Virus record (IMG/VR): IMGVR_UViG_3300044302_000046
Location: 1-22,229 of that record
Direction: 5' to 3' (one strand)
DNA length: 22,229 nt
DNA from: a virus
In this document: piece by piece, positions 3,536 through 11,191 of the stretch
Layout: each line of letters opens with the position of its first letter
Numbering within the stretch: the first letter of the stretch is position 1
The notes under the pieces: generated by a model
Database searches by the model: none
Told to the model about the DNA's origin: nothing
Seen by the model: the letters and a program-made list of their open reading frames with translations, nothing else
Made by a program: the position numbers and the translations under genes

Positions 3536-4525
3536 ATGGCAGTTCCAGTTGATTATGATAAAAGAAAAAAAAGAGGAAGTTCTGCAGCGTTGGGTAAAAA
3601 ACCAGACCCTTATAAATCTATTAGAGATGGTAATAAACAAAAGGTAAAGGGCCAAGCTAATGTTCCTACTGCTAGGCAAAAAAAGGCAGCGGGAAAGTTA
3701 GCTGCTTCAGTAGTAGGAGGTCCTCTTGCTGGTAAACTTATAGGCAAAGCTGCTACAAAACTAGCAGGAGTTGGTAAAAATATTGGTAGAGTGTCTAGAA
3801 AACAACCAACTAGGGCGAATACTGGACAGTTTAAAAAACCTTCTAAGGTAGAATCAACAGTGGGGCAAGCTGTTAAACAGGTAAAAGAGAGTAGACCTGT
3901 TCAAAATATTAAAAATGTTTCCAGAGGAGGAACAGCTGTTACTAAAACAGGAAAGTACAGAAAACCTAATGTTGTTGAAAAAGTTGCCAGAGATGTAGGC
4001 AGATCAAAAAGGGGAGAATCTAAATCTGTTTTTGTAACTCCTAAAGGAAAACCTAGTACAACAGCTAAAGGAGTTTTAGGTATTGGAGCAGCTGCAGGAG
4101 CGGCAAACGTAGGATCTCGGTTATATGATTCTGTAGATCCTATGCCTAAAAATAAAAAAGTAGATACTACTAAACCTAAAGTAAACAAAGAATCTAGTGT
4201 TAATAAGATAAGTGGTTATCAACCAGATCCTACTTCATCACCTAAAATTACATCTAAACCTAAAGCTAAAAAATCTAAAGCTAAAGATACAGATACTGGT
4301 TATAAGTTCTATGGTAAAAAGGGTACTGGCCTAGGAGACTTCTCTAGAAAATATGGTATTAAGTACGCCACTCAAGAGCAAATGGATAAAGACTTTGATC
4401 TGAGTGATGGAGAAAAAGCAGGGGGCAGACCCGGAAGAGGTAAGATGAAGACCCAAGGTATGAACCGTAGTAAACGCAGCGGCTTCTCTGGTAGAGGTTC
4501 AGGCGCAGCACAGAGAGGATTTTAA
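3536..4525 (+). CDS. Very basic, low-complexity virion-associated protein
   Basis: This 329-residue protein is dominated by Lys, Arg, Gly, Ser, Thr and Pro. It has many short KKP, KPK and KSKAK tracts, repeated units like TKTGKYRKPNVVEKVARDVG, and a Gly/Arg-rich end (SKRSGFSGRGSGAAQRGF). Two short Ala/Gly-rich apolar stretches (about residues 55-80 and 182-195) are the only non-polar parts. It has no signal peptide. It is more AT-rich than its neighbours, with much AAA and AGA. I recognise no named domain. The charge suggests contact with DNA or RNA inside the head or at the connector, or an ejected internal protein. That role is inferred from composition and from its place between connector genes. 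Confidence 0.6.
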   Translation: MAVPVDYDKRKKRGSSAALGKKPDPYKSIRDGNKQKVKGQANVPTARQKKAAGKLAASVVGGPLAGKLIGKAATKLAGVGKNIGRVSRKQPTRANTGQFKKPSKVESTVGQAVKQVKESRPVQNIKNVSRGGTAVTKTGKYRKPNVVEKVARDVGRSKRGESKSVFVTPKGKPSTTAKGVLGIGAAAGAANVGSRLYDSVDPMPKNKKVDTTKPKVNKESSVNKISGYQPDPTSSPKITSKPKAKKSKAKDTDTGYKFYGKKGTGLGDFSRKYGIKYATQEQMDKDFDLSDGEKAGGRPGRGKMKTQGMNRSKRSGFSGRGSGAAQRGF

Positions 4526-4527
4526 TC

Positions 4528-4695
4528 ATGGCTGAAACACTTAAAGAAAAAAAACTAGAAGCTTTTAATAAACCACAAACTTCAAAGGATATAGACCAGA
4601 ATCCTCCGACTTCTACAAAGATGTTGGATGCAATCGTAGGTAGGCCCACTGGTCAAGGTTATGGGGCTGCAAGGAAAGGACCAAACATTGTCTGA
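4528..4695 (+). CDS. Small hypothetical protein (55 residues)
   Basis: ATG at 4528 is two bases after the previous stop codon. The frame stays open for 55 codons to TGA at 4693-4695: MAETLKEKKLEAFNKPQTSK, then a polar middle, and an end with GRPTGQGYGAARKGPNIV. It is polar and basic with no membrane segment. The Gly/Arg end resembles that of the preceding basic protein. Its stop overlaps the TTG start of the next small gene, which suggests coupled translation. The function is unknown. Confidence 0.5.
   Translation: MAETLKEKKLEAFNKPQTSKDIDQNPPTSTKMLDAIVGRPTGQGYGAARKGPNIV
4671..4679 (+). promoter_or_regulatory. Ribosome binding site that decides a TTG start
   Basis: AAGGAAAGG (4671-4679) ends 8 bases before TTG at 4688. 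It lies inside the preceding small gene. This is the main reason to prefer TTG 4688 over the in-frame ATG at 4661, which has no well-spaced site. Confidence 0.6.
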
Positions 4696-4810
4696 CGAAT
4701 ATACAACAGAGAAAGCGTGCGGCAACCCCTCTTGCCAATGCACAGGGTGTGATGATTGTTCTTGTTCTAAAGAAGGGGGGTGTGACTGTACACAACCAAC
4801 TGGAGAATAG
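4688..4810 (+). CDS. Cysteine-rich metallothionein-like miniprotein
   Basis: The frame from TTG 4688 to TAG 4808-4810 encodes 40 residues. Eight are cysteines, at positions 11, 16, 18, 21, 24, 26, 32 and 34, in the segment CGNPSCQCTGCDDCSC followed by a C-D-C pair. The closely spaced CxC and CxxC pairs, the absence of aromatic residues in the cysteine region, and the acidic tails are the composition of metallothioneins, which bind Zn, Cu or Cd through thiolates. An AAGGAAAGG site precedes the start and the gene overlaps the upstream stop codon. Metal binding is inferred. A disulfide-rich or Zn-finger-like virion peptide is the alternative. An upstream in-frame ATG at 4661 would give 49 residues but is less well supported. 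Confidence 0.6.
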   Translation: MSDEYTTEKACGNPSCQCTGCDDCSCSKEGGCDCTQPTGE

Positions 4811-4821
4811 AAAGGATATGA

Positions 4822-5100
4822 ATGGTGGAGGACTTTAGTGTATTTCAGGCTATTTCAGATTACGGGCTTGCCATAGTTGCCACCATAGGAGCGGGTGCAG
4901 CAGCTTGGAAACTTTTGCATTTTATGCTTAGAGATGTAGCAACCGCGCTAAAGAGTCAAGATGAAATTATAATTGCTCTGATAGACAAGAGTAACAGAGT
5001 AGAAACTTTAATACAAAGAATGGACTCTAAGCTAGACACAGTTCTACAACATAGCTCAGATCCCTTATTAAAAGAATCAAAAGAAAGGTATAGGTCCTAA
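4822..5100 (+). CDS. Single-span membrane protein with C-terminal coiled coil
   Basis: This 92-residue protein starts at ATG 4822, after AAAGGA at 4812-4816. Residues about 13-36 (YGLAIVATIGAGAAAWKLLHFML) form one hydrophobic span. The rest is a charged amphipathic helix, with heptad-like spacing in IIIALIDKSNRVETLIQRMDSKLDTVL. This layout fits small phage membrane proteins such as holins, antiholins or spanin-like inner-membrane parts, but no catalytic or lipobox motif is present. There is no endolysin next to it in the window, so a lysis role is only a guess. Its TAA overlaps the ATG of the next gene. Confidence 0.6.
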   Translation: MVEDFSVFQAISDYGLAIVATIGAGAAAWKLLHFMLRDVATALKSQDEIIIALIDKSNRVETLIQRMDSKLDTVLQHSSDPLLKESKERYRS

Positions 5101-5291: not shown

Positions 5292-5981
5292 ATGGCAGTT
5301 GCAACTACATCAGACTTTGACGCTACCTTCTTTATAGACGAGGTGATAGAAGAAGCCTTTGCCATGATAGGAGGAGAGCCAGAACTAGGTAATGATGGTA
5401 TCACTGCCAGACGTTCTCTTAATCTTTTGCTTACTGATTGGCAGAACAGGGGCGTCCTTCTCTGGGGTACAGATATAAAGTCTACTGTTCTGACTGAGAA
5501 CGTAGCTGAGTATACTCTAGACGATGACACAGTAGATGTTCTCAACGGGTACATCAGGTTGTCTTCTAACTCTAATGACTTTCAGATGAACCGTATGTCT
5601 TACGAAGAATACGAAGCTATCACCAACAAAGCTACAGCAGGAAGACCTACTCAGTTTGCCAGCCTTAAAGGCAGAGACAACATGAAGATATATGTCTTTC
5701 CTGTTCCTGATGCAGCAGATACCTATACCTTTAGACAGTACAGAATGAAGCGTCTGAAAGATGTTAACAGAAGTGCTCTGGAAAATGCAGATGTTCCTTT
5801 CAGATTTCTTCCCTGTCTCACTGTAGGTCTTGCTTACTACCTAAGTCTCAAGAGACCTAATGTTCCCACAGAACGTATCACCATGCTCCAAGCTCATTAC
5901 GAAAGTCTTTTAGGCACTGCTCTGGAAGCAGACAAAGAACGGGTAAGTTTGTTTATCTCTCCAAGATTAAGGATAGTATAG
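5292..5981 (+). CDS. Tail adaptor / P22 gp4-like connector protein
   Basis: This 229-residue protein has features of the P22 gp4/SU10-type tail accessory (adaptor) family. It opens with a helix (FIDEVIEEAFAMIGGEPELG). It continues with ARRSLNLLLTDWQNRGVLLW, a very characteristic 'a...Ln.ll.dWq.rG..lW' motif, then a beta region (TVLTENVAEYTLDDDTVDVL), GRPTQFASLKG, and the pattern 'i.vfPvPdaad.Ytf...r.kr'. C-terminal helices (FLPCLTVGLAYYLSLKRP) complete the fold. It would extend the portal ring and bind the gp10-like tail protein encoded at 18607. No strong ribosome binding site is seen, and the close spacing suggests coupling. It is the best-recognised connector protein here, though the exact subfamily cannot be fixed by eye. 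Confidence 0.75.
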   Translation: MAVATTSDFDATFFIDEVIEEAFAMIGGEPELGNDGITARRSLNLLLTDWQNRGVLLWGTDIKSTVLTENVAEYTLDDDTVDVLNGYIRLSSNSNDFQMNRMSYEEYEAITNKATAGRPTQFASLKGRDNMKIYVFPVPDAADTYTFRQYRMKRLKDVNRSALENADVPFRFLPCLTVGLAYYLSLKRPNVPTERITMLQAHYESLLGTALEADKERVSLFISPRLRIV

Positions 5982-5982
5982 A

Positions 5983-6402
5983 ATGGCTAAACTCTGCCCC
6001 AAAGGAAAGGCAGCGGCTAAACGTAAGTTTGATGTTTACCCTTCAGCTTATGCAAATATGTACGCCTCTGCTGTTTGTTCTGGTAAGGTCAAACCCGGGG
6101 GAAAGAAAAAAGGAAAGAAGAAAAAACTTGTAGGAGCCAAGACAGGAGGTGGTCTTAGAAAGTGGGTAGGTGAAGAGTGGGTAGACATAGGCGCTCCTAA
6201 GAAGAACGGTAAGTTTCAACCTTGTGGTAGAAAGTCTGCCACAGGTTCCAAAAGAAAATACCCTAAGTGTGTTCCGCTGGCCAAGGCAAAACGTATGACA
6301 GCTGGACAAAAAAAGTCTGCTGTTCAACGTAAAAGATCAGTGAAGCAAGGTGTAGGTGGTAAGCCTACCAATGTTAAAACTTTTGCAAAGAAGAAAAGGT
6401 GA
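5983..6402 (+). CDS. Basic Cys/Lys-rich protein of a viral family of unknown function
   Basis: This 139-residue protein starts one base after the previous stop codon. AAGGA at 5969-5973 is its likely ribosome binding site. Two parts are visible. Residues 4-40 (LCPKGKAAAKRKFDVYPSAY, then ANMYASAVCSGKVKPGG) match a small motif seen in many marine phage and giant-virus proteins. Residues 58-120 carry LRKWVGEEWVDIG, PCGR, YPKCVPLAKAKRM and SAVQRKR. The parts are joined by a poly-Lys linker. Four cysteines (5, 32, 81, 96) could make a metal site. The fold and function are not known to me. A nucleic-acid-binding or DNA-packing role is inferred from charge only. Its TGA overlaps the start of the next, similarly basic gene. 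Confidence 0.65.
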   Translation: MAKLCPKGKAAAKRKFDVYPSAYANMYASAVCSGKVKPGGKKKGKKKKLVGAKTGGGLRKWVGEEWVDIGAPKKNGKFQPCGRKSATGSKRKYPKCVPLAKAKRMTAGQKKSAVQRKRSVKQGVGGKPTNVKTFAKKKR

Positions 6403-6698
6403 TGGCAGTTAAGAAACGAAAAGGTACTATGAAAGGTCATAGCATCAGCGGTGGACAGAAAAGACCTACCAAAGCTGGTGCAGGTATGACCAAGAAGGGT
6501 GTGGCAAAGTACCGGAGAGACAACCCGGGTAGTAAGCTAAAGACAGCTGTTACCGGATCTGTGAAGAAGGGTAGTAAGGATGCAAACAGACGTAAGAGCT
6601 ACTGCGCCAGATCTGCAGGTCAAATGAAGAAGTTTCCCAAAGCTGCAAAGAATCCTAACTCAAGACTAAGACAAGCTAGAAAAAGGTGGAAATGTTAA
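6402..6698 (+). CDS. Basic small protein, DUF6321-like
   Basis: This 98-residue protein opens MAVKKRKGTMKGHS. ATG at 6402 is preferred over GTG at 6399 because it overlaps the previous TGA in the usual ATGA manner. The core AGAGMTKKGVAKYRRDNPGS, followed by KLKTAV, and the tail RRKSYCARSAGQMKKFPK with PNSRLRQARKRWKC form a signature common to many phage and viral proteins. I recall it as DUF6321, but the Pfam name should be checked. About one third of residues are Lys or Arg. Two cysteines (68, 98) are present. Biochemical function is unknown. It is one of four basic proteins in this region and may bind nucleic acid in the virion. Confidence 0.65.
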   Translation: MAVKKRKGTMKGHSISGGQKRPTKAGAGMTKKGVAKYRRDNPGSKLKTAVTGSVKKGSKDANRRKSYCARSAGQMKKFPKAAKNPNSRLRQARKRWKC

Positions 6699-6986: not shown

Positions 6987-7001
6987 AAGGAGTTGAGAGC
7001 A

Positions 7002-7259
7002 ATGGCAAGAGCTTATTTCAATGCAAAGAAAGTTACTAAGAAACCTGCTGCTAAGAAGAAGAAGAAAGTTACCAGCCGTCAAGGGTATAAGGCTAGAGAA
7101 GACGAAAGTTTGGCAATGCGTAGGGGTAAAGGTTCTTCCAAAACGCAGAGCTATAAGTCTAGAAGAGATGAAGCTCAAGGAGCCAGAAAAAAGAAGAGCA
7201 GTAAGAAAGAAAAAAGAAGTCCAGTATACGGTTTGAAAAGGAAAAGCCGTAAGAAATAG
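7002..7259 (+). CDS. Lys/Arg-rich small protein with a repeated YKxRxDE motif
   Basis: The start is set at ATG 7002, 9 bases after AAAAGGAG (6985-6992). A TTG at 6993 would add three residues but lies on the ribosome binding site. The 85-residue protein is about 40% Lys or Arg. It contains two related copies of a short unit, YKAREDESLAMRRG and YKSRRDEAQGARKK, about 24 residues apart. I have seen the 'YK.RrDEs.g.r' unit in small marine-phage proteins with no known role. High charge and lack of a hydrophobic core suggest a disordered nucleic-acid-binding peptide. It closes the run of basic genes before the fibre genes. Confidence 0.55.
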   Translation: MARAYFNAKKVTKKPAAKKKKKVTSRQGYKAREDESLAMRRGKGSSKTQSYKSRRDEAQGARKKKSSKKEKRSPVYGLKRKSRKK

Positions 7260-8739: not shown

Positions 8740-9993
8740 ATGCCTAATGTAAAAAAAGCTTTAATGGCAGCAGCTGGTGCTGGTGGTGGTATTGACTACG
8801 GCAATAAAAAACTTTTTGTCTGGGGTGCAAATACTAATGGTGGTTTAGGACTAGGCAACACCACTGATCTCTCCTCTCCTGTTCAACTAGGAGCCACAGG
8901 AGATTGGCAACGAGCCTGTGTAAGTGGTAAAGGACATTCTTTATTTCTAAAACCTAACGGAACTATGTGGTCTTGTGGTGATGGTGTTAACGGTGCAACA
9001 GGACATGGTAATCAAACTGATCTTTCATCTCCTGTTCAGATAGGCGCTTTAGATACTTGGGCTTGGATTAATACCACACGGCAAGGAGATGGTGGTGGTG
9101 TTAGACCTAGATCAGCGGCTATAAAAACTGATGGAACTCTCTGGATGTGGGGGGCTGGCTCGTATGGTGCACTAGGACAAGGTGACACTGCTTCTCACTA
9201 TTCTCCAGTTCAAGTAGGTGCTTTGACCAATTGGAAAAAAGTTTCATTCGGAAGAGATTTTTGTATAGCTCTCAAAACTGATGGAACCATATGGTCATGG
9301 GGGCGTAACACAGCTGGCCAACTGGGAACGGGTACAGCCCCCGGCGTCAATGCTTCCTCTCCTGTTCAAATAGGCTCACTTACAACTTGGATTGATGTAG
9401 CTGGTGGTGGAAACGCATGGGCGGGAATTAGATCTGATGGTAAGACGTACTGCTGTGGTAATAATTACTATGGTAACTTAGGAAATAATGAACGAGGTGG
9501 GTCGGGAGGTGCTCCTAATCAGTCTAGTCCTGTCCTAGTTGTAGGAGGTCAAACTTTTACAAGTATAGCGTCTGCGTATGCTGTGGTTATCGGAGTACAA
9601 GCAGACGGTACTATGTTTTCTTGGGGGAGAAACTACAGAGGTGGGTGCGGTATAGGGTTAGGACCCGGAGTAGGTTTTGGTGCAAGTGTAAGTAGTCCTG
9701 TTCAGATTGGTTCTTTAACAAATTGGGCAGGATTTGGAGTAAAAAATGCAGATGGTGATTCTATCCTGGGATTTGGTGGTCTTGGCCAGACGGCAGTAGC
9801 TGCTAATGGAACAAGTTTTGCAAAAGTAAAAACTGATGGTACCCTCTGGTCATGGGGGAATGGCGGTGCAGGAGCAATAGGAGTAGGTAACACTACTAAT
9901 TATTCTTCTCCTGTTCAAGTAGGTTCATCTACTAAATGGTTATCTTCTTATACTGGTTACGCCTCTGCTTGGGCATTTGAACAGGCAGACTAG
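8740..9993 (+). CDS. RCC1-repeat seven-bladed propeller, probable tail adhesin (copy 1)
   Basis: This 417-residue protein opens with a short leader, MPNVKKALMAAAGAGGG, and then has seven repeats of the RCC1 type. The key points are WGANTNGGLG, CGDGVNGATG, WGAGSYGALG, WGRNTAGQLG, CGNNYYGNLG, WGRNYRGGCG and WGNGGAGAIG. Most are followed by 'SSPVQ.G....W' and preceded by 'KTDGTLW.W'. Seven repeats is the number for a closed RCC1-family propeller. No protein-exchange-factor role is expected here. In phages such propellers are likely binding heads on tail proteins. No signal peptide or membrane span is present. A paralogue with the same leader lies immediately downstream, which suggests gene duplication or receptor-binding variants. 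Receptor binding is inferred. Confidence 0.75.
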   Translation: MPNVKKALMAAAGAGGGIDYGNKKLFVWGANTNGGLGLGNTTDLSSPVQLGATGDWQRACVSGKGHSLFLKPNGTMWSCGDGVNGATGHGNQTDLSSPVQIGALDTWAWINTTRQGDGGGVRPRSAAIKTDGTLWMWGAGSYGALGQGDTASHYSPVQVGALTNWKKVSFGRDFCIALKTDGTIWSWGRNTAGQLGTGTAPGVNASSPVQIGSLTTWIDVAGGGNAWAGIRSDGKTYCCGNNYYGNLGNNERGGSGGAPNQSSPVLVVGGQTFTSIASAYAVVIGVQADGTMFSWGRNYRGGCGIGLGPGVGFGASVSSPVQIGSLTNWAGFGVKNADGDSILGFGGLGQTAVAANGTSFAKVKTDGTLWSWGNGGAGAIGVGNTTNYSSPVQVGSSTKWLSSYTGYASAWAFEQAD

Positions 9994-10003
9994 GAAATAA
10001 TAA

Positions 10004-11191
10004 ATGCCTAATGTAAAAAAAGTACTCATGGGAGCAGCTGGCGCTGGTGGTGGCAATGAAGTCTATGCTTGGGGAAGAGGAAATCAGGGCAACCTAGCGC
10101 AAGGAGGTACGGATGTAAATAATTCTTCCTCTCCTGTTTTAATAGCAGGTTTATCTCCATCAAACTTTGCCTTTAGTGGTTTCAATGGTTTTGCTATTCA
10201 AGATGGAAATTTATATAGCTGGGGTACTTATAATTTGGGAGTGCTCGGTGATGATGGAGCCACTGTCTACCCACCCGGTAAAAGATTTGCTCCTCCTTTT
10301 GCTACAGTTGCAGGAACTCAAGGCTTTGCAAAGCTAAGTGAAGGTAATGGTGGTTTCTGGTTTCATGCCGTAAAAACTGATGGTACTCTCTGGGCATGGG
10401 GTGATAACACCAAGGGACAGCTGGGTGACGGTACCAATGTTACTAAATCATCTCCGGTGCAAATTGGTGCTCTGACAGATTGGGGTTCAACTTGCAAAAT
10501 AAGAGGATCTCTAGACGCCACCACAGCCTTAAAAGCAGACGGTTCTCTCTGGGCATGGGGTAGAAATAGATTTGGTGCTCTAGGTGTTAATCAGCCGGGT
10601 TCCGGTGGAACATATGATATTTCTTCTCCAGTTCAAATAACCACCGGAGTAGCTGACTTTACAGTTTTAAGATACGGTGGTGCACTTGTTAAAACTAATG
10701 GAGAACTTTGGACTTGGGGAAGAGGTACCAAAGGACAATTAGGTAACGGTACATCTGGGTACTCTGGAATAGCAAAAAGTTCTCCGATTCAAGTGGGTGC
10801 TCTAACAGATTGGTCCAAGCTTGCTGCTACAAACTCCACTCTTCACTGCGTTAAAACTGATGGTACTCTCTGGGCATGGGGAGCGGGTACCTATGGACCT
10901 AATGCAGGAACCAATGTTTCTTCTCCTGTACAGATCGGTGCTCTGACAGATTGGGCAACTCCTGATTCTAACACTGATGCGTACCTAGGCTGGTGTGTTA
11001 AAACTGATGGAACTCTGTGGGGATGGGGTATACAAAAGTACGGACTATTTCAAAATGCTGGAATAGGTACTGGAGACCAGACAGTTAGCTCACCTGTTCA
11101 AGTAGGAACTCAAACACACTACGGTTCACCTAATAAATTTAAAGGTGCTGGTGGTGGAAGAACAGTGGCAAGGGTAATGTATATAGAATGA
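10004..11191 (+). CDS. RCC1-repeat seven-bladed propeller, probable tail adhesin (copy 2)
   Basis: This 395-residue paralogue of the preceding gene begins MPNVKKVLMGAAGAGGG. Seven RCC1 units are visible: WGRGNQGNLA, WGTYNLGVLG, WGDNTKGQLG, WGRNRFGALG, WGRGTKGQLG, WGAGTYGPNA and WGIQKYGLFQ. The spacer SSPVQIGALTDW recurs. Repeat 2 is irregular and has a longer loop (VYPPGKRFAPPFATVAG). The two paralogues differ most in loop length and in the segments between repeats, which is where a propeller would contact its ligand. Its stop codon overlaps the start of the sulfotransferase gene (ATGA), so expression of the adhesin and the modifying enzyme is coupled. Confidence 0.75.
   Translation: MPNVKKVLMGAAGAGGGNEVYAWGRGNQGNLAQGGTDVNNSSSPVLIAGLSPSNFAFSGFNGFAIQDGNLYSWGTYNLGVLGDDGATVYPPGKRFAPPFATVAGTQGFAKLSEGNGGFWFHAVKTDGTLWAWGDNTKGQLGDGTNVTKSSPVQIGALTDWGSTCKIRGSLDATTALKADGSLWAWGRNRFGALGVNQPGSGGTYDISSPVQITTGVADFTVLRYGGALVKTNGELWTWGRGTKGQLGNGTSGYSGIAKSSPIQVGALTDWSKLAATNSTLHCVKTDGTLWAWGAGTYGPNAGTNVSSPVQIGALTDWATPDSNTDAYLGWCVKTDGTLWGWGIQKYGLFQNAGIGTGDQTVSSPVQVGTQTHYGSPNKFKGAGGGRTVARVMYIE
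10373..10881 (+). repeat. Direct DNA repeat within the RCC1 gene
   Basis: A 29-base sequence at 10373-10401 recurs exactly at 10853-10881. It encodes KTDGTLWAWG, and imperfect copies occur near 9123, 9829 and 10998. It could allow recombination that changes the number or identity of propeller blades. Confidence 0.7.

Follow-up and report, generated by a model that had tools for sequence, protein, structure and literature searches.

A short cysteine-rich frame in the late module of a family of marine phages is almost certainly a genuine, conserved and previously unnamed protein gene, judging from its gene order and its pattern of codon change. The window, by which is meant the whole stretch of DNA that was analysed, is a 22,229-base IMG/VR virus record. 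The predicted product is metallothionein-like in every feature that can be read from a sequence. A late-phage analogue of metallothionein, involved in metal buffering, would be the best explanation of the gene as a whole, with a probability of roughly 60%.

Position, product and start codon

The cysteine-rich frame lies between a 55-aa gene and a 92-aa gene (Table 1), and runs from either ATG 4661 or TTG 4688 to a TAG stop at 4808–4810. A 40-residue, eight-cysteine frame with a TTG start, as described in the original prediction, is present in the sequence, and the ribosome-binding site proposed for it can be recognised as a Shine–Dalgarno-like stretch 8 nt ahead of the TTG. Read from this codon, the product is (M)SDEYTTEKACGNPSCQCTGCDDCSCSKEGGCDCTQPTGE. 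It has one Tyr and is devoid of Trp, Phe, Leu, Ile, Val and His.

Table 1. Coordinates of the cysteine-rich gene, its start signals and its neighbours in the window
Feature	Position	Strand	Remarks
Upstream 55-aa gene	4528–4695	+	N-terminal part variable; C-terminal motif GRxTGQGYGAARKGPxxV-stop kept
Shine–Dalgarno-like AAGGAAAGG	4671–4679	+	8 nt before TTG 4688; within the upstream coding frame
TTG start codon	4688–4690	+	Kept in nearly all relatives
Cys-rich metallothionein-like gene, 40 aa	4688–4810	+	Recognised by frame, conservation, synteny and codon-level selection
Cys core, residues 11–34 (all 8 Cys): C-x4-C-x-C-x2-C-x2-C-x-C-x5-C-x-C	4718–4789	+	pN/pS 0.03 at Cys columns; TGT/TGC switches
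92-aa gene, PHROG 18771 (unknown function)	4822–5100	+	Hydrophobic N-terminal segment, then a polar, probably coiled-coil part
SU10-type head-tail adaptor gene	5292–5981	+	PF24175; marks the late structural module

The choice between the two possible starts is settled by comparison of relatives, which points to TTG 4688 and not ATG 4661 as the start codon. The ATG occurs in the window and a few relatives only, and most relatives have no ATG there. An AGG- or AAGG-type sequence is found in the relatives at the position that matches AAGGAAAGG of the window. TTG is the sole usual start available to two clades (L015–L021 and L034–L040), where a stop codon stands just 5' of it and the stretch up to the first Cys offers neither ATG nor GTG. 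L024/L043 lack the small upstream gene, and here the TTG comes immediately after the stop codon of the preceding gene. In two further pairs of loci (L022/L309 and L355/L356), the TTG has been exchanged for an ATG with its own Shine–Dalgarno sequence, AAGGAGG or TAGGAGG. The upstream stops, the lost upstream gene and the separately equipped ATG starts thus provide separate lines of evidence for translation of the frame, which presumably takes place in vivo.

In the window, the cysteine-rich gene begins at TTG 4688 before the upstream gene has ended (stop TGA 4693–4695), so that the two share 8 nt. The cysteine-rich gene is best regarded as a TTG-started late gene, probably coupled in translation to the upstream gene that it overlaps. 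The 55-aa gene is missing or replaced in this place in both L024/L043 and L022/L309. The gene that precedes it in the window ends in GRGSGAAQRGF (4480–4525), which resembles the C-terminal motif of the 55-aa product, as if this were a tail tag common to several late proteins.

The late module can be recognised by two head–tail/adaptor genes (2880 and 5292) that flank the cysteine-rich gene. The major capsid protein is 53–58% identical to those of Pelagibacter phages HTVC023P and HTVC027P, Roseobacter phages CRP-901 and CRP-902, phage DSL-LC04, and others. Promoter- and terminator-like sites are not in excess within the module, which fits its co-transcription. The module also contains a run of small, very basic proteins rich in Lys and Arg (3536–4525, 5983–6402, 6399–6698, and 6993–7259), with DUF5872 and DUF6321 among them; elsewhere in phages, the DUF6321 part stands at the C-terminus of proteins that are far longer (PHROG 10346, 525 positions). 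Further downstream, two adjacent and related proteins (8740–9993 and 10004–11191) carry many RCC1-like repeats of the SPVQIGALTDW...LKTDGTLWxWG type.

Conservation and selection

Cysteine density alone was rejected as proof of a gene. Cys accounts for 22 of the 3607 residues (0.6%) in 19 other proteins of the window, and at this frequency eight or more Cys would fall in 40 residues with a probability of approximately 1e-10. Stop-free runs dense in Cys are, however, also present in non-coding and antisense frames, both in the window and in related phages. Because such runs are common in antisense frames, evidence from conservation is needed. The same runs are what could be said for a chance frame without function, an explanation that is contradicted by selection on the Cys codons, synteny and independently acquired starts (see above), and is extremely improbable.

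Searches of IMG/VR returned 9 loci with the peptide as query and 41 with the peptide alignment, while the downstream 92-aa gene returned 41 loci and its alignment 67. The homologous frame in related phages on which the original prediction had been made to depend was found directly 5' of the 92-aa gene in 65 of the 65 IMG/VR loci that include upstream sequence, as it is in the window. The gap between the two genes is 11–16 nt in the relatives.

The family comprises 31 distinct proteins. Six of the Cys columns are invariant, and in each of the remaining two 28 of the 31 proteins have Cys; the other residues drift, N-P and G near the cysteines being partly conserved. The second finding that would have counted against the original prediction, cysteines that are not conserved, was not made either. 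Cys3 is replaced by His in three distinct proteins representing nine loci (NPNCGHEKC; L344 and others), and Cys6 by Ser in another three proteins. The number of Cys per clade is 7, 8, 9 or 10: one has been lost from the L034–L040 clade (CSS), a ninth is found in a divergent clade (EPCxxxxCxC), and a tenth in L341/L342. On average, Cys makes up 21% of residues, and Phe, Trp and Tyr together less than 1%.

Codon-level comparison of the 31 distinct proteins gave a pS of 0.85 and a pN of 0.025 at the Cys columns, with a pN/pS of 0.645 at the other core codons and 0.90 in the flanks; the values come from plain pairwise counting that uses no tree, but the contrast between them is large. Synonymous switches between TGT and TGC have occurred at seven of the eight Cys codons. 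None of the members has an internal stop. The other two forward frames are stopped in 13 and in all 31 of the 31, and being closed in this way, they leave no overlapping gene to explain the cysteines. One sequence (L301) was entered with a wrong internal ATG start, which does not affect the Cys counts. Conserved synteny and codon-level selection confined to the cysteines together bear out the proposal of a real, conserved gene.

Proposed metal binding and alternative roles

Functional metallothioneins are small, have approximately 20% Cys or more in CxC and CxxC arrangements, contain few or no aromatic residues, and have ligands under selection while other residues are free to vary. All of these features are found in the family. 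With almost no hydrophobic residues, the 40-residue peptide should fold only around metal ions, and its eight Cys thiolates would, by analogy, hold approximately two to three Zn(II) or Cd(II), or a larger number of Cu(I). AlphaFold2, run on a 16-member alignment, returned a model with low confidence scores (mean pLDDT 64, pTM 0.30), which speaks neither for nor against a cluster. A cluster of eight thiolates is not obligatory, since the L034–L040 clade has lost one Cys.

The restriction of selection to thiols, together with the exchange of Cys for His, points to metal–thiolate coordination rather than to disulfides or a binding surface, and is in line with the metallothionein-like character originally suggested. 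Near-exclusive selection on thiols resembles that in metallothioneins, and is unlike that expected for a folded or surface-binding protein. Replacement of Cys by His is expected for metal sites and speaks against disulfides, the drift of non-Cys residues argues against a docking surface, and the variable number of Cys and the lack of a hydrophobic core both fit thiolate coordination of metal.

A redox or disulfide peptide, in which the cysteines would scavenge oxidants or form cross-links and metal would have no role, is likewise expected to be Cys-rich, and the PDB profile search matched only disulfide-rich peptides, albeit weakly and without significance (E 0.9 or worse). However, having no hydrophobic signal peptide, the product should remain in the reducing cytosol. 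The CxC and CxxC spacing, the His found in place of one Cys in nine loci, and the existence of odd Cys numbers (7 and 9) also make this role very unlikely.

The reading ranked second after metal buffering is a small structural or adaptor peptide resembling a zinc knuckle. With one or two Zn bound, it would adopt a fixed shape and dock on a partner from the phage or the host, such as a virion part, the polymerase, the ribosome or the 92-aa neighbour. The location of the gene within a head–tail structural module, the constant partner gene 11–16 nt away, and the partly conserved N-P and G around the cysteines are all compatible with such an adaptor. Yet a pN/pS of about 0.65 in the non-Cys core and about 0.9 in the flanks leaves no conserved docking surface, the number and spacing of Cys differ among clades, and an aromatic or hydrophobic core is absent. 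An adaptor is a rather unlikely alternative.

The constant 92-aa neighbour, a probable membrane protein, could also indicate a more specific joint function. The peptide might, for example, be a metal- or redox-sensing partner of this product, acting as a lysis or membrane protein, and so set the timing of lysis. The pair is kept in 65 of 65 loci even where the gene upstream has been exchanged or has disappeared, but the 92-aa protein is annotated only as of 'unknown function', small phage genes often keep their order without acting jointly, and similar Cys peptides of a wider class (see below) also occur in unrelated phages. Such a partnership is highly improbable.

Metal buffering is retained as the first-choice role. 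Late in infection, the peptide would most likely bind and buffer thiophilic metals inside the host cell, zinc in the first place and copper in the second. This is the weakest step of the proposal, and the odds on it are about even.

Known families and cellular counterparts

Peptides of the window and its relatives have no credible match in Pfam, NCBIfam or PHROG at E-values up to 10, although a composition filter may hide weak matches. For PF02069 (SmtA/BmtA; cut-off 33 bits), hmmscan gave no match to the peptide or anywhere in the window record, the composition filter of HMMER being harsh on such peptides; the positive control, Synechococcus elongatus, did give a match. There is thus no support for placing the peptide in a known metallothionein family. 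The window peptide and SmtA/BmtA are both short and Cys-rich with CxC and CxxC units. However, the phage peptide is shorter, has another layout of Cys, belongs to a late phage operon, and lacks a match to PF02069. In SmtA, His can be used as a metal ligand beside Cys.

The pattern CxNPxCxCxxCxxCxC was matched 21 times among GTDB representatives, but all of these matches proved on translation to be chance out-of-frame or unrelated runs, and no cellular homologue with the Cys spacing of the window was found in GTDB. INPHARED contained no DNA or protein match, though the low-complexity filter of BLAST may mask such queries. A search of a limited body of literature found no paper on phage metallothioneins; a report may nevertheless exist, and no priority is claimed.

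Among cellular organisms of the sea, marine Synechococcus banks zinc with a metallothionein under the control of Zur (PMC9337993). Such a function is therefore plausible in this environment, although kinship with the phage peptide is not implied.

Cysteine-rich frames in other phages

In viral contigs, the pattern CxNPxCxCxxCxC occurs at no fewer than 120 loci, compared with 45 for a reversed-pattern control. This enrichment by count is modest, so the case for a wider class rests on its translations, and most of those among the matches listed are short, M-started peptides of similar look. CxNPxCxC peptides of 20–50 aa with repeated CxC/CxxC units are present in phages unrelated to the window (L278, L258, L238, L217, L249, and many others). 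Parts of the L278 contig resemble marine T4-like phages. Among 369 genomes of the class to which G001 belongs, the shorter wider-class pattern was matched once, by a sequence unlike the wider-class peptides.

Wider-class peptides, such as those of L278 (MCNNPDCECEDCTCDPCNCSKENPCGC...) and L258 (MKNVCDNPNCECENCTCENCNC), open with C-x-N-P-x-C-x-C and are dense in CxC/CxxC, as is the window peptide, but they differ from the window family in spacing, in the phages that carry them, and in gene neighbours. L341/L342 (and L284) have the synteny and operon of the window but the spacing of the wider class. L341/L342 thus bridge the two groups; beyond these bridging members, homology of the wider class to the window family is not proven.

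Similar Cys-rich segments are also seen within larger proteins. A basic phage protein of about 200 aa (L281, ORF from 1415, + strand; L262, ORF from 8222, + strand) has a CNNPGCDCDPCTCGPNCSCG insert, a metallothionein-like segment, and its match to PHROG 23027 lies outside the Cys part. A thioredoxin-like protein of 332 aa (L212, - strand ORF) with an N-terminal CSNPNCNCNPCLCEDRQCG is possibly another larger protein that makes use of CxNPxCxC.

A parallel frame exists in an isolate, Pelagibacter phage HTVC023P. This unannotated 54-aa Cys-rich frame, FCFECHHDCHCDKICPKCSCYTC (L147:23232–23396; record 29014–29178), fills the gap between gp44 and gp45, and the small frame that follows overlaps its stop codon. 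Its lack of annotation is in line with the original remark that standard gene callers can overlook such genes. Across two IMG/VR relatives (L409/L410), 11 residues have changed, none of them a Cys. HTVC023P and the window phage have a related capsid protein (54% identity), a late module, and overlapping small genes in common. However, sequence similarity between the two Cys-rich peptides is absent, and the HTVC023P frame may have arisen independently, by convergence. Nothing convincing was found when Cys-rich frames were sought in HTVC008M, HTVC027P, CRP-901, DSL-LC04, and 023Pt_psg01.

Implications for phage biology

The gene described here is conserved among phages and unnamed in the profile libraries searched, and it comes from the ocean, where zinc and copper can limit or poison cells. 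A broader proposal, tentative and rather doubtful, is that several marine phage lineages carry a large, mostly unannotated and virus-specific class of metallothionein-like CxNPxCxC peptides, without a counterpart in the sampled bacterial genomes, that controls zinc or copper in infected cells. In the window lineage, pairing with a membrane protein might then feed metal status into late assembly or lysis.

Constancy of thiols while the rest of the peptide drifts offers a comparative rule for finding similar mini-genes. If the peptide binds metal, the handling of trace metals would join the effects that lytic marine phages have on their hosts, and could alter how much metal is released at lysis and how much is retained in particles.
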